Shown here: in pieces, positions 2,132-62,126 of the stretch | Position numbering within the stretch: the stretch's first letter is position 1 | How the letters are laid out: each line of letters begins with the position of its first letter | IMG/VR virus record: IMGVR_UViG_3300007609_000003 | Coordinates: 62,001 to 126,000 of that record | Direction: 5' to 3' (one strand) | DNA: 64,000 nt | From: a virus | The notes under the pieces: generated by a model | The model's input: the letters and a program-made list of their open reading frames with translations, nothing else | The model's database searches: none | Told to the model about the DNA's origin: nothing | Translations under genes and position numbers: made by a program

Positions 2132-2140
2132 ATGTAGGGT

Positions 2141-2175
2141 GGTGCCTCTTTATAAATATAAGTAAAAGAGGCACC
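2141..2175 (+). promoter_or_regulatory. stem-loop with late promoter in the loop and SD in the 3' arm
   Basis: GGTGCCTCTTT (2141-2151) pairs perfectly with AAAGAGGCACC (2165-2175). TATAAATA lies at 2151-2158, essentially in the loop. The 3' arm holds AGAGG, the only Shine-Dalgarno for ATG 2182. Read-through RNA would hide the SD in the stem, while RNA started at the late promoter would lack the 5' arm and leave it free. This is the arrangement known for T4 genes e, soc and 49. Confidence 0.8.
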
Positions 2176-2181
2176 ATTATT

Positions 2182-3946: not shown

Positions 3947-6900
3947 ATGGCATTTCCAACAAATCCAGCAGACGGTGACATATATGTCATTGGATCCGTC
4001 GTGTTCACGTATGACGCAACGACTAACGTTTGGGTAAGGTCGTCCGCAGGCGATGGTGGACAGGGCCTTCAAGGTATTCAAGGTATTCAAGGTCCGGCGC
4101 AGGGCGTACAAGGTATTCAGGGTATTCAGGGCTTCCAAGGAAACCAAGGTCTTCAAGGTGAACAGGGTCTTCAGGGTACTCAAGGTACTCAAGGTACAAA
4201 GGGCAATCAAGGTACGCAAGGTATCCAAGGTATTGAAGGACGTGGCGAAACTGGTTTCCAAGGTCTTCAAGGTATAACTGGTGAGCAAGGTCTTCAGGGT
4301 ACTCAAGGCGTGCAAGGTATTCAAGGCTGGCAAGGCGTTCAGGGTACTCAAGGTACTATCGGTGAATTTGGTCTACAGGGTCTACAGGGTCGACGTGGTA
4401 TCCAAGGTGTTCAGGGATTCCAAGGTATTCAAGGGGTACAAGGTGTTCAGGGTACTCAAGGCATGCAAGGTGTGCAAGGAATACAGGGAAACCAAGGCGT
4501 TCAGGGTATGCAAGGTATCCAAGGTGTTCAGGGTGTTCAAGGACTTCAAGGGGACCAGGGTATTCAAGGTACCGGCGGTTTAGGAGAACAGGGTACACAA
4601 GGTATTACCGGAGAACAAGGTGTACAAGGTACTGCCGGATTTGGTAACCAAGGTCTACAAGGTATTCAAGGAACATTCGGTATCCAAGGTTTTCAGGGTA
4701 TACAAGGAGTGCAAGGTACTCAAGGTCTACAGGGTCTACAGGGTGTCCAAGGCATCCAAGGCGAGCAAGGCATTCAGGGTAACCAAGGATTTCAGGGTAT
4801 CACCGGCGCAGGTTTCCAAGGTCTTACCGGAGAGCAAGGCATTCAAGGCGTTCAGGGTACTCAAGGTATTCAAGGGAACCAAGGTGTTCAGGGCGTTCAA
4901 GGTATTATGGGAGAGCAAGGACTTCAAGGTTCTCAAGGCCTCCAAGGTAACTTTGGCCCAGCTCTAAAAATCATTGGGGCGGTAGCCGATGTTAATACAG
5001 ATCCACCTAACAATCCACAAACGTTATTAAACGGTCAGTTCCCATCGGTTAACGTTGGTGAGACTGTTATTGACGAAGCAACAAACGAGCTTTGGGCTTA
5101 TACCGGCGGCGGTACCTGGGTAAACGTTGGAGAGTTAAGAGGCGTCCAGGGTATCCAAGGTTTCCAGGGTATTCAAGGCATTCGTGGCTTCCAGGGTATC
5201 CAAGGAATTTCTGGCCAGCAAGGTATCCAAGGCGAGCAGGGCGTTCAGGGTCTACAGGGTCGTCAGGGTATTCAAGGCGTCCAAGGGATCCAAGGTATTC
5301 AGGGTACTCAGGGTATCCAAGGCGAGCAAGGGGTTCAAGGTCTGCAAGGATCTCCTATCCAGGGTATGCAGGGTCGTCAAGGGATCCAAGGTTTTGATGG
5401 TATTCAAGGTATTCAAGGGAACCAAGGTGTACAAGGTATCCAAGGCGAGCAGGGTGTACAAGGCGTACAGGGTATACAAGGATCGCAAGGCGTCCAAGGT
5501 ATTCAAGGTGGACAGGGTGTTCAAGGCCTGCAGGGTAGCCAAGGTCTTCAAGGTCTGCAAGGCGTTCAAGGTAAAACTGGAGATCCGTTCCGAATAATAG
5601 GATCTATTGAAGATGTAAACGTCAACTTTCCAGCGCGTACCCCTGAAGAAATAATAAGAGAAGCATTTGGTCCAACACTCGATGGGCAGCCACCAACTGA
5701 AAGACCTAGTATTGCTAGCCCAGACATATCCGACGGCGTAATCGACGAAGAGCTGAATGAACTTTGGCTATGGAACGGTAACGAATGGATAAACGTTGGA
5801 GATATCGTCGGACCGCAGGGTATCCAAGGTATTCAAGGAATGCAAGGAGTCCAAGGTACACAGGGTATTCAAGGTATTCAAGGTATCACTGGAGAGCAGG
5901 GTGTTCAAGGTATTCAAGGTGCTGCAATACAAGGCATACAGGGTATCCAAGGTGTTCAGGGTATCATCGGCAATCGAGGATTCCAAGGTTTCCAAGGCAT
6001 CCAAGGTGTTCAAGGTACCGCAATTCAGGGTACACAGGGTATTACTGGAGAGCAGGGTGTTCAAGGTATACAGGGTAAAGTAGGTAATCCATTTAGGATT
6101 CTTGGATCTGTACAAGACGTTAACCAAGCTCCGACATTCGACCCACAGGTTATTCTTGAAACATCGTTTCCAGATCCTTCTCCTGGTGATGCTGTAATCG
6201 ATGAGGCAACGAATAATTTATGGACATATACACCAGACGCGGGCGGTGAATGGATAAACGTCGGTAATATCGTTGGACCTCAGGGTATTCAGGGTGTTCA
6301 GGGTCTACAGGGTACGCAAGGTAACCAGGGCATACAAGGTGAACAAGGTACTCAAGGTGCTACTGGGCAACAGGGTACATACGGTCGCCAAGGCGTGCAA
6401 GGTACTGGAAACACCGGATCTCAGGGTCTTCAAGGTATTCAGGGTAACCAAGGATTAAGAGGACCGGGGCAAGGTGTTCAAGGTACTCAAGGTAACCAAG
6501 GTATACAGGGTATTCAGGGTACTCGCGGCGTACAAGGGCGCCAAGGTATCCAAGGTCGTCAAGGTCTACAGGGTATGCAAGGTATACGCGGGCAACAAGG
6601 TCTGCAGGGTAGCCAAGGCGTCCAAGGCGTTCAAGGTTTACAGGGTACTCAGGGACGCCAAGGTATCCAGGGTATCCAGGGTATTCAAGGTATTCAGGGT
6701 ATACAAGGTATTCAGGGTCTACAGGGTATTCAGGGTATTCAAGGCCGACAAGGTATCCAGGGTATCCAAGGCCGACAGGGTATTCAAGGACGTCAGGGTC
6801 GTCAAGGTATCCAAGGATCGCAAGGTGTTCAGGGTATTCAGGGTACTCAGGGCCAACAGGGTCGTCAAGGTAGACAAGGTCGCCAAGGTACTCAAGGTCA

Positions 6901-9163
6901 AAGAGGACCACAGGGATATCAGGGTCTACAAGGAAGCGTAGGTTTCCAAGGTCGCCAGGGTACAAAGGGCGCACAAGGTGTACAAGGGCGTCAAGGTTTC
7001 CAAGGTATTCGTGGATTCCAAGGAACCCAAGGTACGACCGGCGAGCAAGGTATTCAGGGTATTCAAGGCATCCAAGGAAACCAAGGTTTCCAGGGTATTC
7101 AAGGTATTGCACAAGCAGGGCCCCAAGGTCTTCAAGGCCAAGCGGGTTCGGTTCAGGGTATTCAGGGTTCCAAAGGCGCCGACGGCGAGGGCGGTGGGGA
7201 TCCGTTGCCGATAGGCCAAGAAGGTGAAGTATTATATAACACTCAAGATGATACAAACAATGCTCAGTTTGACGATCTAGTTAACATAGAACCAATTATC
7301 GTTTCTTCCGAAGGTGAGGTGCCAGATTACTTTACCGAGCCCGGACCACCTGCTCCAACTACGCAGGAGATTTTTGAAGACTGGTATAGGTTCTCACACA
7401 ACACGACAACTAATTACCCAGCACGCGAGGCCGATGTTAGCGAATCGCAATGGCAGTATGATTCTGTTGCCGACGAAATCGTTGGGTTAAATAACACTGG
7501 CACTGCAGTTGGATTTGTTTCAGATCTTAAGTACTCATTCTATACCCATACAGCTACTTTAAGAAGTGGGCAGTTTGATAACGATACCGTTGGGGTTGTT
7601 CTTGCATTCACGGCGGAAGGGACTCTTGGGCAACCGGATTACAGAGAATACACGCTAACAGCATTTAGAACTGCTGGCGGTACTATGGGCGGCCGCACAT
7701 GGGGTGTTTCATATAACATCCAACAGGCGGATGGGCAAATTATTGCTGATGGCAGTGCGGCAGTACCTGAGACCGGCGGATGGGCCGCGCTTGGATCTAC
7801 TATCGTCGACGTGGATAGACAAGGCGATACAATAATTGTAAAGACTTCTCCGTTTGGCAGCGCAGCATTGAGCGAAGCTTCAACTCTCACCATTGATTTA
7901 ACGGATCAAACGTTCGTTGACGATAGCGGTGATCCAGTCTTAGAAAAGTTTAGAGGCTTTAAATCTTACGGGTATATGGCTTATAGCCAAGGTGATGCAA
8001 GATTTAGTGGAGTTTTTAGCGGCATCTCACTTGGGGCGAATGTTGTGTATGATGTTGTGTCGGGTAAGGTATACGGCCCATCTGAAAATCTTCCATATTA
8101 CCAAGAGATCGTAGGAGCTGCAACATTTAATGACATTGCAGAACCGGGTCGTTTCTATAACAACCCGACATCTCACTTTACTACTTGGAGATCATCCTTT
8201 GATGAAAACAACTATATAATAGGCCGCGAAAACGGTGGTGGTAGTGGATCACAAGGTATTCAAGGTATTCAAGGTATTCAAGGAACGGATGGTGGCGGTA
8301 GCTCAATCGATTGCGTAGACTGCGACTATGACGAGCCAACAGATACGAATAACAGTGTAGCAATACACTCGAAGCAGTCAATGTATCTATTTATTGACGA
8401 TAATAACAGCGCAGGAGAAGATTCAAACTACTTTGGGTTCTATAACAATCTAGATCCATATTCGGACACAGTAAATAGAGATAATACCATCTTTAGGGTC
8501 GATGAGGACGGTTCAGTTCGAACAACAAATACGATATATGCAACAACAAGTGGAATACGTTTCCCTGATGATGCATACGGCGGTAGCGGTGACACTGCAA
8601 GGATCTACCTAGGAACTGGCGGAGGAGAGGCAACTCAGCTTACTCTTGAAATGACCAACGATATAAATGATGAGATACATCTAAAAGTCCCAGATGATAA
8701 CGGTGTAAAGATCAACGGATACACTGTTTACCACGAAGGGAACCATGTATGTGGTAACACAGGCGGTGGCGATGGTGGTGGTCTTTCTTCAAGAACCAAC
8801 CTGATCGTAGCTACATCTTCTTTGGCAGATGACGCAAGCGAAGATGTAAATCTAACCGGATTTAAAGGTTACGCGGTCTACGCAATCACAACTGATGAAG
8901 CCGCTTGGGTTAGATTATATATTAATGCTGCGGCAAGAACTGCCGATGCGAGTAGAAACGAATTTACGGACCCGGACCCAGACGCAGGAGTGATCCTGGA
9001 AGTTATAACGAACGGCGCTGAAACCGTTGTTATTTCACCTGCTGTCTTTGGTTTTAATGGCGAAGTTCCGCCAACTACAAATATACCAATGACCATTACG
9101 AACAAGTCAGGTTCGACCACTGCCATTCAAGTAACTGTTACTGCTCTTCAATTAGAGGTATAA
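3947..9163 (+). CDS. giant collagen-like tail fibre with lectin-like domain
   Basis: This protein has 1738 residues. A short N-terminal domain (1-40, with DGDIYVIGSVVFTYD) leads into long Gly-X-Gln-Gly collagen-like tracts such as QGIQGIQG. These are broken by three globular knobs at about nt 4957-5135, 5572-5810 and 6076-6280, each ending in VIDE...ELW.Y/WxG..WxNVG. After the last tract (about residue 1085) comes a jelly-roll/LamG-like domain (about 1140-1365) and a fibre tip with VYHEGN (near 1600), a motif seen in T4 long-fibre proteins. The tracts have few prolines, unlike animal collagen. The protein probably forms a long trimeric adsorption fibre. Confidence 0.88.
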   Translation: MAFPTNPADGDIYVIGSVVFTYDATTNVWVRSSAGDGGQGLQGIQGIQGPAQGVQGIQGIQGFQGNQGLQGEQGLQGTQGTQGTKGNQGTQGIQGIEGRGETGFQGLQGITGEQGLQGTQGVQGIQGWQGVQGTQGTIGEFGLQGLQGRRGIQGVQGFQGIQGVQGVQGTQGMQGVQGIQGNQGVQGMQGIQGVQGVQGLQGDQGIQGTGGLGEQGTQGITGEQGVQGTAGFGNQGLQGIQGTFGIQGFQGIQGVQGTQGLQGLQGVQGIQGEQGIQGNQGFQGITGAGFQGLTGEQGIQGVQGTQGIQGNQGVQGVQGIMGEQGLQGSQGLQGNFGPALKIIGAVADVNTDPPNNPQTLLNGQFPSVNVGETVIDEATNELWAYTGGGTWVNVGELRGVQGIQGFQGIQGIRGFQGIQGISGQQGIQGEQGVQGLQGRQGIQGVQGIQGIQGTQGIQGEQGVQGLQGSPIQGMQGRQGIQGFDGIQGIQGNQGVQGIQGEQGVQGVQGIQGSQGVQGIQGGQGVQGLQGSQGLQGLQGVQGKTGDPFRIIGSIEDVNVNFPARTPEEIIREAFGPTLDGQPPTERPSIASPDISDGVIDEELNELWLWNGNEWINVGDIVGPQGIQGIQGMQGVQGTQGIQGIQGITGEQGVQGIQGAAIQGIQGIQGVQGIIGNRGFQGFQGIQGVQGTAIQGTQGITGEQGVQGIQGKVGNPFRILGSVQDVNQAPTFDPQVILETSFPDPSPGDAVIDEATNNLWTYTPDAGGEWINVGNIVGPQGIQGVQGLQGTQGNQGIQGEQGTQGATGQQGTYGRQGVQGTGNTGSQGLQGIQGNQGLRGPGQGVQGTQGNQGIQGIQGTRGVQGRQGIQGRQGLQGMQGIRGQQGLQGSQGVQGVQGLQGTQGRQGIQGIQGIQGIQGIQGIQGLQGIQGIQGRQGIQGIQGRQGIQGRQGRQGIQGSQGVQGIQGTQGQQGRQGRQGRQGTQGQRGPQGYQGLQGSVGFQGRQGTKGAQGVQGRQGFQGIRGFQGTQGTTGEQGIQGIQGIQGNQGFQGIQGIAQAGPQGLQGQAGSVQGIQGSKGADGEGGGDPLPIGQEGEVLYNTQDDTNNAQFDDLVNIEPIIVSSEGEVPDYFTEPGPPAPTTQEIFEDWYRFSHNTTTNYPAREADVSESQWQYDSVADEIVGLNNTGTAVGFVSDLKYSFYTHTATLRSGQFDNDTVGVVLAFTAEGTLGQPDYREYTLTAFRTAGGTMGGRTWGVSYNIQQADGQIIADGSAAVPETGGWAALGSTIVDVDRQGDTIIVKTSPFGSAALSEASTLTIDLTDQTFVDDSGDPVLEKFRGFKSYGYMAYSQGDARFSGVFSGISLGANVVYDVVSGKVYGPSENLPYYQEIVGAATFNDIAEPGRFYNNPTSHFTTWRSSFDENNYIIGRENGGGSGSQGIQGIQGIQGTDGGGSSIDCVDCDYDEPTDTNNSVAIHSKQSMYLFIDDNNSAGEDSNYFGFYNNLDPYSDTVNRDNTIFRVDEDGSVRTTNTIYATTSGIRFPDDAYGGSGDTARIYLGTGGGEATQLTLEMTNDINDEIHLKVPDDNGVKINGYTVYHEGNHVCGNTGGGDGGGLSSRTNLIVATSSLADDASEDVNLTGFKGYAVYAITTDEAAWVRLYINAAARTADASRNEFTDPDPDAGVILEVITNGAETVVISPAVFGFNGEVPPTTNIPMTITNKSGSTTAIQVTVTALQLEV

Positions 9164-9166
9164 TAA

Positions 9167-10954
9167 ATGTTAAGAGAATGGATAGTTACTCTCTATGATC
9201 GCAACCAACTAGATGATTTCTATGATGATATGCAAACCCCTGGTGGAGCTTTGTATATACCGGATAGAGCCGTTGATGTTTCGGCGCAAAGGCCTACGAG
9301 TAGAAATACTCATTACATGCTTACTTACGAAGAAGCAATGTTAGTAAAAAACGATGAAAGAGTTTGGGGCGTAGAACTTTATGACATAGTAGTAAATTCG
9401 TTACGGCCGTTAGGATATAAAATAGATGAGGGTGTTTTTTCTAAAAACGTATTCACGTCCGGGCCAGCGCTTTCTCAGGTTGACGTGAACTGGGGTCTTT
9501 TACGCCAAAACAGAAATACTCCGCCGGCAAATTGGGGATTTGATAACTTTTTACCACAAGACCCAAATAATGCAAATGCAGCCGAATCTGAACTGTTGGC
9601 GGCAGATAATAATGTAATCGTAACAGCATCCGGAAGAAACGTTGACGTTTTAATTGTAGACGAGCATTTGGACCAGACGCACCCAGAGTTTGCAGCAAAT
9701 CGTGACGGAAGCGGTGGGACTAGATGTGTTGCGTACAATTGGTTTCAGAATGATGTAGGATTTGGGACTGGTACGTACCAATATGGTTTGGCTAACCAAA
9801 GTAATCACGGGACACACGTTGGAGGGATCGCGGCAGGCAATAACCAAGGTTGGGCCAGAGATGCAAATGTATATAGCTTAGGCGCCTTTCCGAGTACTGC
9901 AAACTGGGGAGTGTGCGGGTATGACGATACCACGATGTGGGATTACGTAAGAGCTTGGCATAATTCAAAGCCAATTAATCCAGTGACTGGTAGAAAAAAT
10001 CCTACTGTATCAAATCATAGCTACGGTGCGTTTCTTTCAGTTGGGCAAGGTAATTTTAGCCAAATCTATGCCGCCACCTATCGTGGGGTCAGGTATGCAC
10101 CTGGGCGCGCTCTTACTGTTGCTGAACTTCAGGCAAGAGGGTTTAAAACTAGCAGCCAGAGCTTTGGTTTTCAAAATTACTCGATCTCGCAGCAGGCAGA
10201 TTTGCAAGATGCAATGGCCGATGGGATAATCGTTTGTACCGCTGCTGGTAACGAGGGATGGAAGCAAGTCCAAGAGGGCCACGTGGATTATAACAACGAG
10301 TTCGAGGTAACCTATCTTCCAACTGGTCAAACCTATAAAAACTATTATCAAAGAGGTGGCGGAGGCCGCTCGGGCCAAGCATATGCACCGGTTCTAGTAG
10401 TAGGATCCGTTGGGACATGGAAAGAAGAATACAAGAGTGATTTCAGTAATTGCGGAAACGGCGTTGACGTGTTTGCCGTTGGCTCTACAGTGCAAAGTAG
10501 TGTACATGCAGGTGGATATTTTGGGACTATACAAGACCCTCGTTCTGGTGGGGCACACTACCTTGCGAAAACGCAAGGAACGAGCATGGCTACTCCTCAA
10601 GTAGCTGGAATGCTAGCATGCCTCGCTGAAACATGGCCTAACATGACCCAAGCTCAAGCGCACCAATGGATTATCGATTTTTCGACTAAAGATGCGCTAA
10701 GTGATACTGGAACAGACGATGCAATGGATGAGCAAAGCTTACAAGGTGCTCCTAACAGATTCGCGAAATGGATCAATCAAAGACCTATTGGGCGTACTAT
10801 GTTTCCTCCAAGAAATTTTAGGCCGCGAACCCTCAACGGAGATCCCATACCTTCGAATTGGAGCGCGAATGCCCTCCTTGCAGGAGATGATCCACCGCCT
10901 GCTACAGTCGGCAGGAGAGTTTATCCAAGGCCTCGTATACGACGAAGAGGGTAA
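9167..10954 (+). CDS. subtilisin-like serine protease (S8), probably virion-associated
   Basis: The 595-residue protein has a complete S8 catalytic set: Asp165 in VLIVDEHLD, His214 in NHGTHVGG, the oxyanion Asn362 in TAAGNEG and Ser473 in GTSMATPQVAG. Residues 1-130 look like a pro-region or virion anchor; there is no signal peptide. The C-terminus (about 540-595) is Pro/Arg-rich. It starts three bases after the giant fibre gene and is the last gene of that unit. It could mature fibres or digest host surface protein; the sequence does not decide between these. A T4-like phage subtilase within a fibre operon is unusual. Confidence 0.9.
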   Translation: MLREWIVTLYDRNQLDDFYDDMQTPGGALYIPDRAVDVSAQRPTSRNTHYMLTYEEAMLVKNDERVWGVELYDIVVNSLRPLGYKIDEGVFSKNVFTSGPALSQVDVNWGLLRQNRNTPPANWGFDNFLPQDPNNANAAESELLAADNNVIVTASGRNVDVLIVDEHLDQTHPEFAANRDGSGGTRCVAYNWFQNDVGFGTGTYQYGLANQSNHGTHVGGIAAGNNQGWARDANVYSLGAFPSTANWGVCGYDDTTMWDYVRAWHNSKPINPVTGRKNPTVSNHSYGAFLSVGQGNFSQIYAATYRGVRYAPGRALTVAELQARGFKTSSQSFGFQNYSISQQADLQDAMADGIIVCTAAGNEGWKQVQEGHVDYNNEFEVTYLPTGQTYKNYYQRGGGGRSGQAYAPVLVVGSVGTWKEEYKSDFSNCGNGVDVFAVGSTVQSSVHAGGYFGTIQDPRSGGAHYLAKTQGTSMATPQVAGMLACLAETWPNMTQAQAHQWIIDFSTKDALSDTGTDDAMDEQSLQGAPNRFAKWINQRPIGRTMFPPRNFRPRTLNGDPIPSNWSANALLAGDDPPPATVGRRVYPRPRIRRRG

Positions 10955-13178: not shown

Positions 13179-13361
13179 ATGATTGAATACTATGAAATGG
13201 TGAAAAAACTACGTGAACTAATTCGTAGCACTGATGGGCCTAACTCAAAGATACCTGCGTTCAAAATCATGGACCTCGCAGATGAACTGCAAGAAAAAGC
13301 AGAGAATGCCGAACTACAAATGATCGTTCAGATGCAACGTGATCGAGTTGAAAATTCTTAA
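13179..13361 (+). CDS. small helical early protein, unknown function
   Basis: A 60-residue charged helical protein (MIEYYEMVKKLRELIRS to a C-terminal coiled-coil-like segment). I chose ATG 13179 rather than the in-frame ATG 13164, because the latter lies inside the conserved leader whose GAAAGGA serves as the ribosome site for 13179. Function unknown. Confidence 0.65.
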   Translation: MIEYYEMVKKLRELIRSTDGPNSKIPAFKIMDLADELQEKAENAELQMIVQMQRDRVENS

Positions 13362-13379
13362 TCTAAACGAAAAAAGTTG

Positions 13380-13408
13380 TTGACATTTCGTTTAGAATCA
13401 GTTATATT
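13380..13408 (+). promoter_or_regulatory. sigma70-like promoter of the shared-spacer family (TTGACA-17-TATATT)
   Basis: TTGACA at 13380-13385 and TATATT at 13403-13408, with the TTTAGAATCAG spacer. It is nearly identical to the copy at 11685 from the -35 box through TATATCA. It drives the DUF932 gene at 13447. Confidence 0.8.
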
Positions 13409-13446
13409 GTTTATATCAGATGAAAACAAACTGAAGGAAATATAAA

Positions 13447-14397
13447 ATGCACGAACTTGAGATCGTTAACGGTGAAGCACAGATGGCATACCGTGAAAGC
13501 AAAGGACTTCCTTGGCATGGTCTTGGTACTCCAGTTGGAGACGACATGACTCCTCAACAAATGATGGAGGCAGCAGGCCTCGATTGGGGAGTGGAAAAGG
13601 TAGATACCTTTATTCGCTACAAAGGCGATAACGTTGCGACCGGACAACAAGCGTTGGTTCGTTCTACTGACGGAAAGATCCTTACGCAAGTAGGACCAGG
13701 TTGGAACCCAGTTCAAAATGAAGAAGCTTTTGAGTTCTTTAATGAATTTGTATCCGGTGGCGACATGATCATGGATACTGCAGGTTCTCTTAAGGATGGC
13801 CGGTTAGTCTGGGCTCTTGCAGATGTTAAGGATGGATTTTCTCTGTTCAATGGTGATGAAGTAAAAGGTTACCTCCTGTTCTCCAACCCACATATCTATG
13901 GTAAGTCTATTGACATCAAGTTCGTCATGGAACGCGTAGTCTGTAACAACACACTCGCAGTTGCTCTTAACGAAGCAGGTCAACCTTCTGTTCGCGTCAA
14001 CCACCGCTCGGTATTCGATGCGGGTCGCGTCAAGGAAATCCTTGGCCTCGGTCACAACAAGGTCGAGAAGTTCAAAGAAGCCGCAGAGTTCCTTGGATCA
14101 AAGCGTTACACCGATGAGCAACTGACTCAGTTCTTTGGCGTTGTATTCGGCAAATCTTCAAAAGAAAAAGAAGAACTTGCTCGTAACGCAAAAGAAGCAA
14201 TGTCAATCGTTGAGGACCAACCAGGCGATCACTTTGCTCCAGGAACATGGTGGAACGCATACAACGCGGTTACATATATGACTGACCATAAACTGGGTCG
14301 TTCTGCCGATACTCGTATGGCTTCTGCCTGGTTCGGTGGAAACGCAAAGCGCAAGGTTGACGCCTTGGATCTTGCACTGGAGATGGCCGATGCCTAA
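13447..14397 (+). CDS. DUF932 phage/plasmid-like protein
   Basis: The 316-residue protein matches the DUF932 (phage/plasmid-like, LGT_TIGR03299-type) family through ESKGLPWHGLGTPV, DWGVEKVDTFIRYKG, FNEFVSGGDMIMDTAGSLKDGRLVWALA and RVVCNNTLAVAL. Family members are common on phages and plasmids, and their biochemical role is unknown. It has its own strong promoter at 13380 and a GAAGGA ribosome site. The stop overlaps a tiny membrane-protein gene that begins at 14390. Confidence 0.88.
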   Translation: MHELEIVNGEAQMAYRESKGLPWHGLGTPVGDDMTPQQMMEAAGLDWGVEKVDTFIRYKGDNVATGQQALVRSTDGKILTQVGPGWNPVQNEEAFEFFNEFVSGGDMIMDTAGSLKDGRLVWALADVKDGFSLFNGDEVKGYLLFSNPHIYGKSIDIKFVMERVVCNNTLAVALNEAGQPSVRVNHRSVFDAGRVKEILGLGHNKVEKFKEAAEFLGSKRYTDEQLTQFFGVVFGKSSKEKEELARNAKEAMSIVEDQPGDHFAPGTWWNAYNAVTYMTDHKLGRSADTRMASAWFGGNAKRKVDALDLALEMADA

Positions 14398-14488
14398 TAT
14401 TACGGACACAACTTTTGCTATAGTCATTGGATTGGCTATAGCGTCCATCCTTATCTTTGTCGATCCATTGGGTATCGTTCATATCTAA
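14390..14488 (+). CDS. tiny single-pass membrane protein
   Basis: A 32-residue ORF starts inside the end of the DUF932 gene (8-base overlap). It contains one hydrophobic segment, AIVIGLAIASILIFV. The overlap suggests coupled translation. It is short, so it could be a chance ORF, but the clear transmembrane pattern supports it. The hemA stem-loop begins six bases after the stop. Confidence 0.5.
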   Translation: MPNITDTTFAIVIGLAIASILIFVDPLGIVHI

Positions 14489-14493
14489 AGAAA

Positions 14494-14549
14494 GCCTTCG
14501 CAAATAAATATATGTTTATACAAGCTATTTAACATTTGTTTGCGAAGGC
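14494..14549 (+). promoter_or_regulatory. stem-loop with late-promoter-like octamer; hides the hemA SD
   Basis: GCCTTCGCAAA (14494-14504) pairs perfectly with TTTGCGAAGGC (14539-14549) across a 34-base loop. AATAAATA at 14503-14510 is one base from the T4 late octamer, and the same variant precedes the tail tube gene at 27116. GAAGG in the 3' arm is the ribosome site for ATG 14556, seven bases away. The design equals that at 2141-2175: read-through RNA is blocked and late-initiated RNA is open. Confidence 0.72.
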
Positions 14550-14555
14550 ACAGCT

Positions 14556-15755
14556 ATGAAATACTCAGAATACTTCAATCAGACCATAAAGGACTTTAAA
14601 GACGACGGGCGTTACCGAGTCTTCAACGATATACTGAGAGAACGTGGTAACTTTCCTCGATCTATATGGTATGGTAAGTATGCGCCAAAGAACATAATTA
14701 ACTGGTGCTCAAACGATTACCTAGGAATGGGACAGAACCGGTTCGTGATCGACTCTATGCATACAGCTCTTGACCAAACCGGCGCAGGATCCGGTGGAAC
14801 GAGAAACATAGGTGGTACTTCTCACTATCATGTAACTCTTGAGCGTGAGTTGGCCTCACTACACAGTAGAAGCGGAGCGTTGCTATTCACAAGCGCGTAT
14901 GTTGCAAACGAATGGTCGCTAGTTGCACTATCACGCATCATACCAGACATTTGTTTCATTTCAGATAATAAAAACCATGCTTCTTTAATTATGGGAATGA
15001 AACATTCTCGAGCAGAGAAGAAAGTATTTCAACATAACGATATGGAAGATCTGGAGACTCAGTTAAAGAATGCCGTAAAAGAAAAACTAAATCCTGTTAT
15101 CGTTTTTGAGTCCGTCTATAGTATGGATGGGGATGTAAGTCCAATTAAAGATATCGTTGCGTTGGCAAAGAAGTATGATGCTCTAACTTACATTGACGAA
15201 GTTCATGCGGTTGGATTATACGGTAAACATGGTGGAGGAATGTGTGAAGAACTCAACCTATGGGCCGATGATATAGACATAATTAACGGAACTCTAGGAA
15301 AAGCATTTGGAGTTCAAGGAGGTTACATTGCGGCAAATAAAGAAATTGTTGATGCTATTCGATCTGTTGCAAGTGGATTTATCTTTACCACTAGTATGTC
15401 ACCGGTATTATGCGCAGGGGCTCTCGCCTCTATAAATTACCTCAAGGATCATTCATCTTTAAGAGACGAACATCAATCGAAAGCCAAGAAACTCAAACAA
15501 ATGTTGCAAGAGTACGATATACCAGTACACCCAAACGCATGTACTCATATTGTCCCAGTCATGGTTAACGACGCATTTAAGGCAAAGGAAGCAAGCGATA
15601 GACTACTCAATGAGTATGGAATATACATACAAGCAATCAATAGCCCAACTGTAGAAGTTGGAACAGAAAGACTTCGGATAGCACCTACACCGTATCATAC
15701 AGATGTAATGATGATGGAACTGGTAACTGCACTAAAAGAAGTTTTAACCAAATAA
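14556..15755 (+). CDS. hemA: 5-aminolevulinate synthase
   Basis: The 399-residue protein is a complete PLP enzyme of the alpha-oxoamine synthase group, condensing glycine and succinyl-CoA to 5-aminolevulinate, the first step of the C4 haem pathway. Diagnostic ALAS segments are [13 protein letters not shown] (77-89), [12 protein letters not shown] (140-151), [10 protein letters not shown] (184-193), [10 protein letters not shown] (214-223) and [12 protein letters not shown] with the PLP lysine K249. The C-terminal [19 protein letters not shown] is typical of ALAS and not of KBL or BioF. The C4 pathway is the alphaproteobacterial route. A stem-loop with a late-promoter-like element precedes it, so late expression is likely. 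Nothing suggests decay. Confidence 0.94.
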
Positions 15756-15767
15756 AGGTAATATATA

Positions 15768-16124
15768 ATGTTTTCAAACACTGCGCCGTCTGCCGTCATA
15801 AATGCGCTAATACAATGCGCTGCTTTATATGCTTCTTCCTACGGAATAGATTGGGCAATGTATCCTGTGATGGGAATGATTGGCTACATCGCGTTTATGC
15901 AATCAATCGCGGCATCGAGTTTATTTTCTGGCCTAGTTGGTTCTGAACCGGATGAAGAAACTGGCAACTATTCGCTTTCAGTGCTCATTGCCATTCTATA
16001 CTTAGCATCATCTTACCACGTGTATACGTTAGGATATACGGTTTTTTCTGGATTTATGTTTGCACACTCCGCGATTTTTTTATTGACAAATGTTTTTGGA
16101 ATTATAAAACTAGTAAAAGATTAA
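15768..16124 (+). CDS. four-helix integral membrane protein, unknown function
   Basis: This 118-residue hydrophobic protein has about four transmembrane segments, including VINALIQCAALYASS, YPVMGMIGYIAFMQSIAAS, LSVLIAILYLASSYHVYTLGY and FMFAHSAIFLLTNVFGI. A short charged loop, EPDEETGN, sits in the middle. It follows hemA by 12 bases and precedes the APS-kinase-like gene by 14 bases, so all are in one operon. I do not recognise a family. Confidence 0.75.
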   Translation: MFSNTAPSAVINALIQCAALYASSYGIDWAMYPVMGMIGYIAFMQSIAASSLFSGLVGSEPDEETGNYSLSVLIAILYLASSYHVYTLGYTVFSGFMFAHSAIFLLTNVFGIIKLVKD

Positions 16125-16138
16125 TCTGAGGTTATATA

Positions 16139-16567
16139 ATGAAGATTCTAATTATGGGACTCCCCGGTTCCGGTAAAACTTGGTTAGCTGAACGACTCCA
16201 GGCTCGTCTTAATTGTGCCTGGTTTAACGCAGACACAGTTAGACACATGGCCAACGATTGGGAGTTTAGTGAAGCTGCTAGACTTCGCCAAGCGTATCGT
16301 ATGAAATCATTAGCAGATTTTGAATTAGAAATGAAACGCACTGTCATATGCGACTTCGTATGCCCACTTGAAGAAACACGTGATATCTTCAACGCTGACT
16401 ACACCGTTTGGATGGATACTATCGAAAAAGGTCGTTTTAGTGATACGAATAGCATGTTTCAAAAACCAAATAAAGTAGATTATCATGTAACTAAGTGGTT
16501 TGATAACACAGACGAAACTTTAGCAAATGCTGTTGAGCGTCATATTAGGATACATAACGATGTTTGA
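16139..16567 (+). CDS. adenylylsulfate-kinase-like P-loop kinase
   Basis: The 142-residue protein has a P-loop GLPGSGKT at 7-14, then NADTVRHMAND (30-40), FSEAARLRQ (43-51), VICDFVCPLEETR (69-81) and VWMDTIEKGRFSDTN (90-104). These line up with the APS-kinase pattern DGDNVR, FSEADR, ISPY.xxR and the ADP-side lid, so it probably phosphorylates adenylylsulfate to give PAPS. It is shorter than cellular CysC (about 200 residues) because the C-terminal helices are missing. A related small kinase activity is possible. It overlaps the nucleotidyltransferase gene by 8 bases, suggesting joint action. Confidence 0.72.
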   Translation: MKILIMGLPGSGKTWLAERLQARLNCAWFNADTVRHMANDWEFSEAARLRQAYRMKSLADFELEMKRTVICDFVCPLEETRDIFNADYTVWMDTIEKGRFSDTNSMFQKPNKVDYHVTKWFDNTDETLANAVERHIRIHNDV

Positions 16568-16970
16568 TTATCAAAAACCAACAGTTCAAATGCTTGGTAG
16601 ATGGCAACCTTGGCACGACGGTCATACAGAACTATTTAAAAAAGCACTTGCAGAAACAGGTCAAGTTTGTATTATGGTTCGTGATGTAGGCGGTATCGTT
16701 GGCGAAGACGCAGGTGCCGGACGCACAACACCGCAAGACGATAATCCATTTGATTGCCATACTGTATCTATGAATATTGAAAAAGGATTAGCAAGCGCGG
16801 GCTTTACGCTCCGTGAAGAATATATTATAATGTTTGTACCTAATATTGTAGATATTAGTTACGGCCGCGGTGTAGGATATACCTTGACAGAACACGATCT
16901 TGGTGATACAATACATAGTATAAGCGCAACTAAAATAAGAAAACGAATGAGAGAAGAAGGAACATTATGA
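16560..16970 (+). CDS. HxGH nucleotidyltransferase, candidate partner of the APS-kinase-like protein
   Basis: The 136-residue protein has the nucleotidyltransferase signature GRWQPWHDGHTELF, with HDGH at 19-22, and a second motif ISATKIRKRMR at 121-131. These are shared by cytidylyltransferases, NMN adenylyltransferases and ATP sulfurylases. Because it overlaps the APS-kinase-like gene, a role in making adenylylsulfate is a reasonable guess, but substrate residues cannot be assigned. ATG 16560 gives the natural N-terminus and overlaps the previous stop. The next gene overlaps its end by four bases. Confidence 0.72.
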   Translation: MFDYQKPTVQMLGRWQPWHDGHTELFKKALAETGQVCIMVRDVGGIVGEDAGAGRTTPQDDNPFDCHTVSMNIEKGLASAGFTLREEYIIMFVPNIVDISYGRGVGYTLTEHDLGDTIHSISATKIRKRMREEGTL

Positions 16971-17275
16971 ATACCCAAACACCGCAGTCACTCCCTTCAA
17001 CGGTTACAGACCACGATCGAAAAATCATCCAGGACGCTCTACGAGAAATGTCTGACTCAATGACTCGTATCTCTGCAGAAAAGGATCTACAAAAAGAAAT
17101 TGCTGAAACTATTCTCGAAAAGGTAAACGTACCAAAGAAAGATTTTAACAAACTGGCGCGCATCTTTCATGCTTCGAATTTAATGGAAGAAGCTGCTCGC
17201 AACGAAGAATTTATGGGATTTGCAGAAGCTGTAATGGTTCCTGTCTCAAATCAAATTGAAAATAAGGAAGCATAA
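16967..17275 (+). CDS. dsbA: DsbA-like late-promoter accessory protein
   Basis: The 102-residue helical protein contains KEIAETILEKVNVPKKDFNKLARIFHASN (about 48-76). This matches the core of the T4 DsbA protein, a double-stranded DNA-binding RNA-polymerase accessory factor that binds late promoters. The remainder is charged with an acidic tail. ATGA overlaps tie it to the genes on both sides. A late-transcription helper fits the many TATAAATA elements in this genome. The match is on a short protein and should be tested by profile search. Confidence 0.65.
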   Translation: MNTQTPQSLPSTVTDHDRKIIQDALREMSDSMTRISAEKDLQKEIAETILEKVNVPKKDFNKLARIFHASNLMEEAARNEEFMGFAEAVMVPVSNQIENKEA

Positions 17276-17776: not shown

Positions 17777-17947
17777 ATGAATAAATATCTTACATATATC
17801 TGCGTTGCATCTTTTTTGCTTGTCGGTGCTTCTTGTTCAACTACTACCAGCAGCGTTAACAGCAGAATCAACAATTTAGAAACTGCACTGTGGCATAATG
17901 CGATAGACGAGGCAGGCCGGAGTGCAAGTAGGAGTTTTAGGCAATGA
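17777..17947 (+). CDS. small lipoprotein-like secreted protein
   Basis: A 56-residue protein with a Lys-containing N-terminus, hydrophobic core YICVASFLLVGAS and Cys20, a lipoprotein-type signal peptide. The -3 residue is Gly rather than Leu/Val/Ile, so lipidation is likely but not certain. The mature part is Ser/Thr-rich and then charged (NSRINNLETALWHN). The size would also suit an outer-membrane spanin (Rz1-like), though the mature part is not proline-rich. ATGA overlap with the DoxX-like gene. Confidence 0.6.
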   Translation: MNKYLTYICVASFLLVGASCSTTTSSVNSRINNLETALWHNAIDEAGRSASRSFRQ

Positions 17948-18354
17948 TTAAGAAATTTGTAAACAAGATACCAGAGTTTTGCATGAGTCATTGGCTTATT
18001 CGCATTCCTTTGATTGTCGTATTCTTGCAACAGGGCTTTGACAAATGGCCGATCGATGCTGGTATGGCAGAAGCGTTTGGGCTTACTCTTTTAGTATGGA
18101 CATTTGTTGTACTAGGAGAAATCGGTGGAGCAGTTGGCCTTGTTGTCGGTGGTCTCTTGGACTATACTAAACGATTTAAAGAGTTGGGTGATCTCATTAC
18201 ACGTTTCTCTGGAATCGTTATTACTGGTATCATGACTGGTGTTATCTGGGTAGGCGAGCCTGAGAGTTTTACATACGTATTGCTGTATGATAACTTTCAC
18301 GTCTTACTCTGGGTAGGCGGCATGTACTTTGCTCTACGAGGCAATAGGACATGA
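17944..18354 (+). CDS. DoxX-like four-helix membrane protein
   Basis: The 136-residue membrane protein shows the DoxX pattern: RIPLIVVFLQQGFDKWP near 20-36, GEIGGAVGLVVGGLLDY near 59-75 and RFSGIVITGIMTGVIW near 88-103. The final segment DNFHVLLWVGGMYFALRG follows. DoxX-type proteins are small membrane subunits linked in some bacteria to terminal oxidases or thiol/redox balance. The overlap with the lipoprotein gene and the nearby pseudoazurin suggest a membrane redox function, which is inference. Confidence 0.65.
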   Translation: MIKKFVNKIPEFCMSHWLIRIPLIVVFLQQGFDKWPIDAGMAEAFGLTLLVWTFVVLGEIGGAVGLVVGGLLDYTKRFKELGDLITRFSGIVITGIMTGVIWVGEPESFTYVLLYDNFHVLLWVGGMYFALRGNRT

Positions 18355-18655: not shown

Positions 18656-19108
18656 ATGAGACTATTAACAGTACTAACAGCACTAACACTGGGCTTTTGC
18701 ACACCAGCCTTTGCTGAAACAGAGTTGCCTGCAGAATACACTTTAGAAATGTGGAACAGAGATCCGGATGACCGTAAGCGTAAGATGGTATTCTCTGAAG
18801 ATGTAATCACCGTGGCACCGGGTGCAGAAGTTACTTGGTTAGCAACAGATCGTGGTCATAATGTAGAGTTTATTGATGGCCCTGATGGCGTTGAGTTGGC
18901 AGACAAGTCAAAACTCAATAAAGACGTAACTATCACAATGACGGAGCCAGGCGTATATGTGTATGTATGTACACCGCACGCAACTATGGGCATGATTGGC
19001 GTAGTAGTCGTAGGTGTTGCAACACCAGAAGCAATCGCGCAAGCAGCGGATGCCAAGGTACGCGGCAAGTCAAAAAAGAAACTAAAAGATCTACTATCAG
19101 ACCTGTAA
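18656..19108 (+). CDS. pseudoazurin (blue copper protein) with signal peptide
   Basis: The 150-residue precursor has a signal peptide ending at AFA20, so the protein goes to the periplasm. The mature part has the type 1 copper ligands His68 (GHNVEF), Cys105, His108 and Met113 in YVCTPHATMGMIGVV. Cys-to-His and Cys-to-Met distances (3 and 8) equal those of pseudoazurin. The C-terminal helical extension (ATPEAIAQAADAK...KKLKDLL) is also pseudoazurin-like. It would carry electrons between cytochromes and reductases or oxidases. GGAGG precedes the start. It is the last gene before a strong terminator. Confidence 0.9.
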   Translation: MRLLTVLTALTLGFCTPAFAETELPAEYTLEMWNRDPDDRKRKMVFSEDVITVAPGAEVTWLATDRGHNVEFIDGPDGVELADKSKLNKDVTITMTEPGVYVYVCTPHATMGMIGVVVVGVATPEAIAQAADAKVRGKSKKKLKDLLSDL

Positions 19109-19130
19109 GTTTATAAACAAGACTTTGAGA

Positions 19131-19163
19131 AAACAGAGGTACACTGCCTCTGTTTTTTTTTTT
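19131..19163 (+). terminator. rho-independent terminator after the pseudoazurin gene
   Basis: AAACAGAGG (19131-19139) pairs with CCTCTGTTT (19147-19155) around a 7-base loop, followed by an unbroken T run to 19163. It closes the hemA-pseudoazurin operon. Confidence 0.9.
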
Positions 19164-61717: not shown

Positions 61718-62126
61718 CATCTTCCTCCGCTTGGCCCAGCGTATATGATATAGTAGCATCTACCGTGCTATTTGAAGTAGCTTTTACCTCTAGCCTATCT
61801 CCAGTGTATATGAATTGCCCGTTCATAGGATATGGGAGAACATCGAACGCTGGTACTGCAACTTCATTTGCTAACCAGAACGTTGTATTCGAACTATCTC
61901 GGTGTATCCTTACACTTACGTAAACAGTTTCTATATCTCGGTTTGCGATGAGTAAAGGAGTAATTACTTCGGCAACACCTGGAACGGTTACGTTTGTACC
62001 GCCGAAAACGAGTTCTGGGACTGAGTAACTTGGAACCTCAATGATTGATTCCCAATCCTCTGTGAGTGTAACACTAAGACCAACCGGCTTGGCGTCTGGT
62101 GCTTGGCTTGTTGTAATGATTGTCAT
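61707..62126 (-). CDS. small beta-rich fibre-associated protein (module A)
   Basis: A 139-residue beta-rich protein with PLLIANRDIETVYVSVRIHRD and GDRLEVKATSNSTVDATISYTLGQ. It is the paralogue of the protein at 42519 in the same relative position. It overlaps the edge gene by four bases and the fibre gene by 11 bases. Probably a connector or decoration of the tail; no family is recognised. Confidence 0.76.
   Translation of the reverse strand: MTIITTSQAPDAKPVGLSVTLTEDWESIIEVPSYSVPELVFGGTNVTVPGVAEVITPLLIANRDIETVYVSVRIHRDSSNTTFWLANEVAVPAFDVLPYPMNGQFIYTGDRLEVKATSNSTVDATISYTLGQAEEDDVA

Follow-up and report, generated by a model that had tools for sequence, protein, structure and literature searches.

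A 5-aminolevulinate synthase (ALAS) gene in a T4-like phage that infects aquatic bacteria appears to sit, together with a late leader of its own, as an insert in an early operon, such that the gene would be silent on read-through RNA and translated from late RNA; we regard this reading as a whole as probable. The gene, a member of the viral family valaS, lies in a 64,000-nucleotide stretch (positions 62,001 to 126,000) of the 201,055-base virus record IMGVR_UViG_3300007609_000003. We refer to this stretch as the window, and positions are those of the window unless given as genome positions. The leader and the gene are laid out as follows:

14494 to 14504, plus strand: 5' arm of the hairpin, GCCTTCGCAAA, expected to be absent from RNA begun at the late promoter
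14503 to 14510, plus strand: late-promoter-like AATAAATA (T4 consensus TATAAATA), with a start expected near 14516
14539 to 14549, plus strand: 3' arm of the hairpin, TTTGCGAAGGC, holding the ribosome site GAAGG at 14544-14548
14556 to 15755, plus strand: 5-aminolevulinate synthase (valaS), 399 amino acids, matching TIGR01821, with pyridoxal phosphate (PLP) lysine K249 and without the heme-feedback His and Cys

The two arms pair perfectly over 11 bp, the late-promoter-like motif is located at the arm-loop junction, and GAAGG is 7 nt from the ATG at 14556; stem, motif and buried ribosome site thus read as the initial annotation of this DNA had described them. The predicted folding of the leader RNA bears this out. 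For the whole leader the fold has an energy of -23 kcal/mol and, relative to dinucleotide-shuffled sequences, a z of -3.8; the predicted cost of opening the Shine-Dalgarno sequence and start codon (SD/AUG) is 19.2 kcal/mol on read-through RNA versus 5.5 kcal/mol on late RNA. When shuffling was confined to the part 5' of the inferred late start, the opening cost was 6.6 +/- 1.9 kcal/mol, and none of 100 shuffles reached the observed value. The structure of the leader is far past chance level. Searching viral contigs for exact patterns of this leader turned up no copies. In T4, TATAAATA occupies positions -13 to -6 relative to the start of transcription. Because this geometry would place the start of a late transcript near 14516, that transcript is expected to lack the whole 5' arm.

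We propose that, on transcripts from the early promoter upstream, the leader would fold into a stem of 11-16 bp that masks the ribosome site, and that ALAS would be poorly translated from these transcripts or not translated at all. Phage-modified RNA polymerase, with gp55 sigma and the gp45 clamp, would start at AATAAATA inside the stem, and the resulting late transcript, beginning at about 14516 without the 5' arm, would be translated. Late in infection, ALAS would then condense glycine and succinyl-CoA to 5-aminolevulinate (5-ALA), free of the known heme-feedback residues. The phage encodes the late-transcription proteins that such a scheme involves: a gp55 late sigma homolog at genome 176937-177302 (E 7e-23) and a gp45 clamp homolog at genome 157155-157808 (E 8e-28). 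A gp23 homolog (phrog_138) is also present, by which the closest isolates are the Sinorhizobium phages phiM12 and phiN3 (~67%). Across the whole genome, the late promoter TATAAATA occurs within 100 nt upstream of genes 31 times in the sense orientation versus 3 times in antisense; with any first letter allowed (NATAAATA), it precedes 47 genes in sense versus 5 in antisense over the same distance. Early promoters are marked by the long motif TTGACATTTGGTTTAGAATCAGTTATATTG, with 14 sites at no more than 5 mismatches.

Leaders of this kind are known in T4 from experiment or analysis (PMC3014915, PMC2988022). For the T4 genes e, soc, 49, I-TevI, I-TevII and segB, a stem covers the SD/AUG on early read-through RNA, and a late promoter in or beside the 5' arm gives rise to late RNA without that arm (PMC3014915, PMC2988022). 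The predicted masking at ALAS, with a late promoter at the 5' arm and the gene within an early or middle transcription unit, follows the same plan, and the likeness to e and 49 drawn in the initial annotation is upheld by a calibration on 30 T4 leaders, in which our opening-energy measure ranked segB, I-TevI, I-TevII, e and 49 as the top five (z 10.6 to 2.8). T4 soc scored only 1.5, and the defective I-TevIII was missed; a motif-centred stem scan recovered T4 e and I-TevII. The ALAS leader differs from the T4 cases in that a metabolic enzyme, rather than lysozyme, a capsid protein or nucleases, is controlled, in that AATAAATA takes the place of TATAAATA, and in that its stem is longer and stronger than that of e (scan score 32 versus 19). 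Homing endonuclease inserts (I-TevI, segB, mobE) are a close parallel, since each is a foreign gene that sits in an early operon behind a hairpin-gated late leader of its own, and a leader of this type also precedes a SegE-type GIY-YIG gene at another place in the genome. Unlike them, ALAS is not itself a mobile element, and no nuclease was recognised adjoining it.

The enzyme itself is identified by its profile scores as a true ALAS. The reading frame at 14556-15755 is intact and scores 558.7 bits against TIGR01821 (cut-off 338.55), the PLP lysine K249 sits in TLGKAFG, and the closest solved structures in the PDB are the ALAS entries 7x98 and 2bwn, in keeping with the earlier claim of diagnostic ALAS segments, the PLP lysine and no sign of decay. 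Since the fold and motifs are common to the whole alpha-oxoamine synthase family, another member (KBL, BioF, serine palmitoyltransferase (SPT) or CqsA) has to be considered; we find this exceedingly unlikely. The models for bioF, kbl, SPT and CqsA give much lower scores, each below its own cut-off, which leaves TIGR01821 as the only profile in the comparison to pass, 240 bits above bioF; moreover, an E. coli strain auxotrophic for 5-ALA is rescued by a published member of the viral family (PMC11480375). All 58 viral rows in a tree that also holds 31 bacterial ALAS sequences, mainly alphaproteobacterial, fall on one side of a branch with support 100/100, and the viral clade is closest to alphaproteobacterial ALAS (47-58% identity). 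A search of INPHARED for phage ALAS returned KBL/BioF-like matches only, at ~27-35% identity and many in bacterial-looking records. The residues used for heme feedback in Rhodobacter capsulatus (His342 and Cys400) are not kept in the phage enzyme, in which K342 aligns with His342 and the final Cys is C329.

The genes around ALAS place it within an early operon:

13380 to 13408, plus strand: early sigma70-type promoter (TTGACA, 17 nt, TATATT), one mismatch to the phage early consensus
13447 to 14397, plus strand: DUF932 protein (PF06067), upstream of the insert and early by its promoter
14390 to 14488, plus strand: small membrane-type open reading frame (ORF) of 32 amino acids, just before the leader, with a counterpart in relatives that lack ALAS
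15768 to 16124, plus strand: ORF118, membrane-type, found directly after DUF932 or the small ORF in relatives that lack ALAS
19127 to 19159, plus strand: terminator-like site following a pseudoazurin-like gene, the strongest downstream of ALAS on this strand

The early promoter drives DUF932 and points onward into ALAS, and a terminator scan found no plus-strand terminator-like site between this promoter and ALAS. The order is thus early promoter, DUF932, small ORF, late leader and ALAS, ORF118 and a kinase gene. At the DUF932 loci of related contigs that lack ALAS, DUF932 (with or without the small ORF) runs directly to ORF118 or to another gene. One such empty site, in a 182,738-base contig (L272), shares DNA similarity with window positions 13360-14390 and 15745-17000, skipping the sequence between; in two other relatives (L002 and L003), the start of the late motif roughly coincides with the point at which the match to the empty site breaks off. 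A late motif lies just downstream of DUF932 at 5 of 7 ALAS-bearing loci, the window included, versus none of 34 loci without ALAS, in counts that are uncorrected for kinship. The empty site, and the restriction of the motif to ALAS-bearing loci, indicate that ALAS and its late leader were gained or lost together within the early operon.

A long, GC-rich stem between two cistrons could also terminate or attenuate early transcription, or serve as a site of nuclease processing. We consider this very improbable: no T run follows the stem, the terminator scan left it uncalled, no Rfam family matches the leader, and the late motif is placed where arm and loop meet, the arrangement of the T4 switches.

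Several other features of the neighbourhood were recorded. An 11-bp perfect inverted repeat at 13362-13396 (TCTAAACGAAA...TTTCGTTTAGA) surrounds the -35 element of the DUF932 early promoter. The same operon as ALAS contains a pseudoazurin-like copper protein (18656-19108) with an apparent signal peptide, which scores 98 bits against TIGR02375, slightly below the cut-off of 110; a DoxX-family protein is encoded at 17944-18354. A 1738-amino-acid collagen-like protein with GxQG repeats, followed by a 595-amino-acid subtilase (PF00082), occupies 3947-10954.

The ALAS leader is one of several of its kind in the genome. A scan of the 201-kb genome for perfect stems (arms of at least 10 bp, loops of 8-60 nt) found only 27 perfect inverted repeats. 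Of these, 6 stop no more than 25 nt before a gene start, and 4 of the 6 combine arms of 11 bp or longer with a late motif where arm and loop meet. By opening energy, a z of at least 5 was reached by 5 of 42 leaders with a late motif versus 1 of 202 leaders without one (Fisher p 0.0006). The five switch genes encode a PAAR protein (2182-2490), a DUF1127 protein (genome 17602), a 76-amino-acid protein (genome 168258), a SegE-type GIY-YIG protein (genome 56823) and ALAS, and their stems share no sequence relationship. An early promoter is found on the same strand, no more than 3 kb upstream, for three of the five hairpin-bearing late genes versus 1 of 37 other late genes (p 0.003); downstream of an early promoter is the place where such a switch is needed. 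The SegE-type gene (genome 56823-57239, L084) lies behind AATAAATATCCTT..AAGGATATATTATG, 0.67 kb past an early promoter; a shuffle test that retained the sequence after the motif missed it, and shuffling everything upstream of the start codon detected it. Another stem of 10 bp, at genome 52614-52658 (L084; z 8.7), has the SD in its 3' arm and lies within an early, rather than a late, promoter (TTGACA, 17 nt, TATATT); it could be a variant of the switch that silences read-through RNA and permits expression from the gene's own early promoter. A motif-centred scan of Sinorhizobium phage phiM12, from the nearest isolate group, found no such hairpins.

The PAAR gene carries the other late-promoter hairpin in the window:

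2140 to 2176, plus strand: second late-promoter hairpin, GGTGCCTCTTTATAAATATAAGTAAAAGAGGCACC, preceding the PAAR gene at 2182-2490

This stem is retained in two sets of relatives (L102-L104 and L105-L107), with three pairs altered on both sides; the PAAR gene of the contig with the empty ALAS site is among the hairpin-bearing ones (L103). The compensatory score was reached by 37 of 500 shuffles and comes from three distinct sequences only, so the compensatory changes are suggestive, rather than proof, of a stem that has been kept. For the DUF1127 gene, a homolog with 40% identity (L168) retains both the late motif and a stem.

Other viral ALAS genes occupy different settings. Many sit behind nrdA without a late motif (e.g. 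L009). In L034, L035, L043, L044 and L047-L051, ALAS lies behind an nrdB-glutaredoxin pair or a glutaredoxin-like C-terminus and a late motif is present; the family of the upstream gene was scanned only in L035. A scan of 80 ALAS loci for perfect stems of at least 9 bp found none, because the stems of other clades hold G-U pairs or overlap the promoter, and the opening-energy test was used in its place. By this test, L034 (z 5.3), L047 (z 4.4) and L044 (z 3.6) each have a predicted stem over the SD or AUG that none of 100 shuffles matched; in all three, the stem requires sequence lying 5' of the late start. Overall, 12 distinct leaders carry a motif, and 4 of these (the window, L034, L047 and L044) were matched by none of 100 shuffles, whereas none of 33 leaders without a motif reached this level (p 0.003, uncorrected for kinship). 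Since the L034 and L044 leaders seem homologous by eye, present evidence points to two or three hairpin origins at most among viral ALAS leaders. Viral-type ALAS contigs also occur in bacterial genome bins (L223, L224, L225 and G001), including Rhodobacteraceae Water_Bin34, which has three viral-type copies and one at 52% identity; L224 is near-identical in the tree to the viral L071. These are probably phage contigs mis-grouped with bacteria.

Some observations weigh against an early-silence, late-on switch at ALAS. The motif AATAAATA is a one-off variant of the consensus TATAAATA, and taken alone it shows no more than mild enrichment before genes (5 sense versus 2 antisense). For two of the five hairpin-bearing genes, no early promoter was recognised nearby on the upstream side. 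Moreover, the stem is poorly conserved among close relatives: L002-L005 and L007 all have a late motif 41-44 nt upstream of ALAS, but the stem is weak in L002 and L003 (90% amino acid identity; z 2.3, 3 of 100 shuffles) and absent in L004, L005 and L007 (85% identity). The late promoter may therefore be the older element, with the stem added recently and in this lineage only. Taken further, the retention of the motif in the last three of these loci without a strong stem would fit a real late promoter that sets the timing by itself, with the stem as a lineage-specific by-product that has no regulatory role. We think this improbable, because four more genes of this genome carry the device with unrelated sequences, the PAAR stem appears to be maintained by compensatory change, the early promoter is aimed directly at ALAS, and stems reappear in other ALAS leaders. 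A switch acting on read-through RNA remains our preferred reading of the ALAS leader.

The same phage encodes heme breakdown enzymes under different control. Outside the window, overlapping genes encode a heme oxygenase (genome 6975-7559) and a ferredoxin-dependent bilin reductase (genome 7522-8211, L082). These genes, hemO and pcyX, are preceded by a perfect sigma70 promoter (TTGACA-17-TATAAT) at genome 6922, and no late motif was found within 100 nt upstream of either. Because hemO/pcyX have a sigma70 promoter and ALAS has a late leader, we infer that heme breakdown would begin early in infection and 5-ALA synthesis late.

The viral 5-ALA synthase valaS, with activity proven by complementation, was described by Wegner et al., 2024 (PMC11480375). 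Formation of 5-ALA from glycine and succinyl-CoA was demonstrated for a related viral enzyme, CB_2, and the heme-feedback residues His342 and Cys400 (R. capsulatus numbering) are lost in many valaS members (PMC11480375). The window gene shares with the published ones its enzyme family, its occurrence in aquatic T4-like phages and the missing heme-feedback His and Cys, and its separation from the heme oxygenase and bilin reductase genes corresponds to the 'broken cassette' of that study (PMC11480375). It differs in its late leader, the text of PMC11480375 making no mention of a hairpin, terminator or ribosome binding site, and in that this phage pairs a late-leader valaS with hemO/pcyX behind a consensus sigma70 promoter. 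The initial annotation had called late-phase synthesis of a heme precursor by a phage unexpected; this no longer holds for the gene, which was already published (PMC11480375), and the late-only timing is a prediction from sequence.

Phage ALAS and the hairpin-late-promoter switch are therefore each already known, and their combination is apparently new; a literature search of open-licence papers found none that joins a late hairpin over a ribosome binding site to a metabolic gene. Also seemingly new are the presence of five switches in one genome, with compensatory changes in the PAAR stem, the occurrence of ALAS and its late leader as an insert in an early operon, and the different late-promoter hairpins at viral ALAS genes behind nrdB-glutaredoxin. 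We put forward tentatively, and with somewhat less than even confidence, that late-only ALAS has been repeatedly selected, with valaS genes that came to lie behind DUF932 or nrdB-glutaredoxin, in operons of the early or middle class, having separately evolved unrelated silencing hairpins while hemO/pcyX of the same phage are early. On this reading the phage would run heme breakdown and the supply of heme precursor as two timed phases.

Auxiliary metabolic genes are mostly treated by function and rarely by the timing of their translation. The ALAS leader seems to put a metabolic gene under the same early-silence, late-on control as T4 lysozyme and homing endonucleases. Such tight late-on control of ALAS suggests that premature production of 5-ALA would be harmful or wasteful. 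Since the switch can be predicted from sequence alone, the timing of other such genes would be readable in uncultured T4-like phages, and could be tested with simple reporters.
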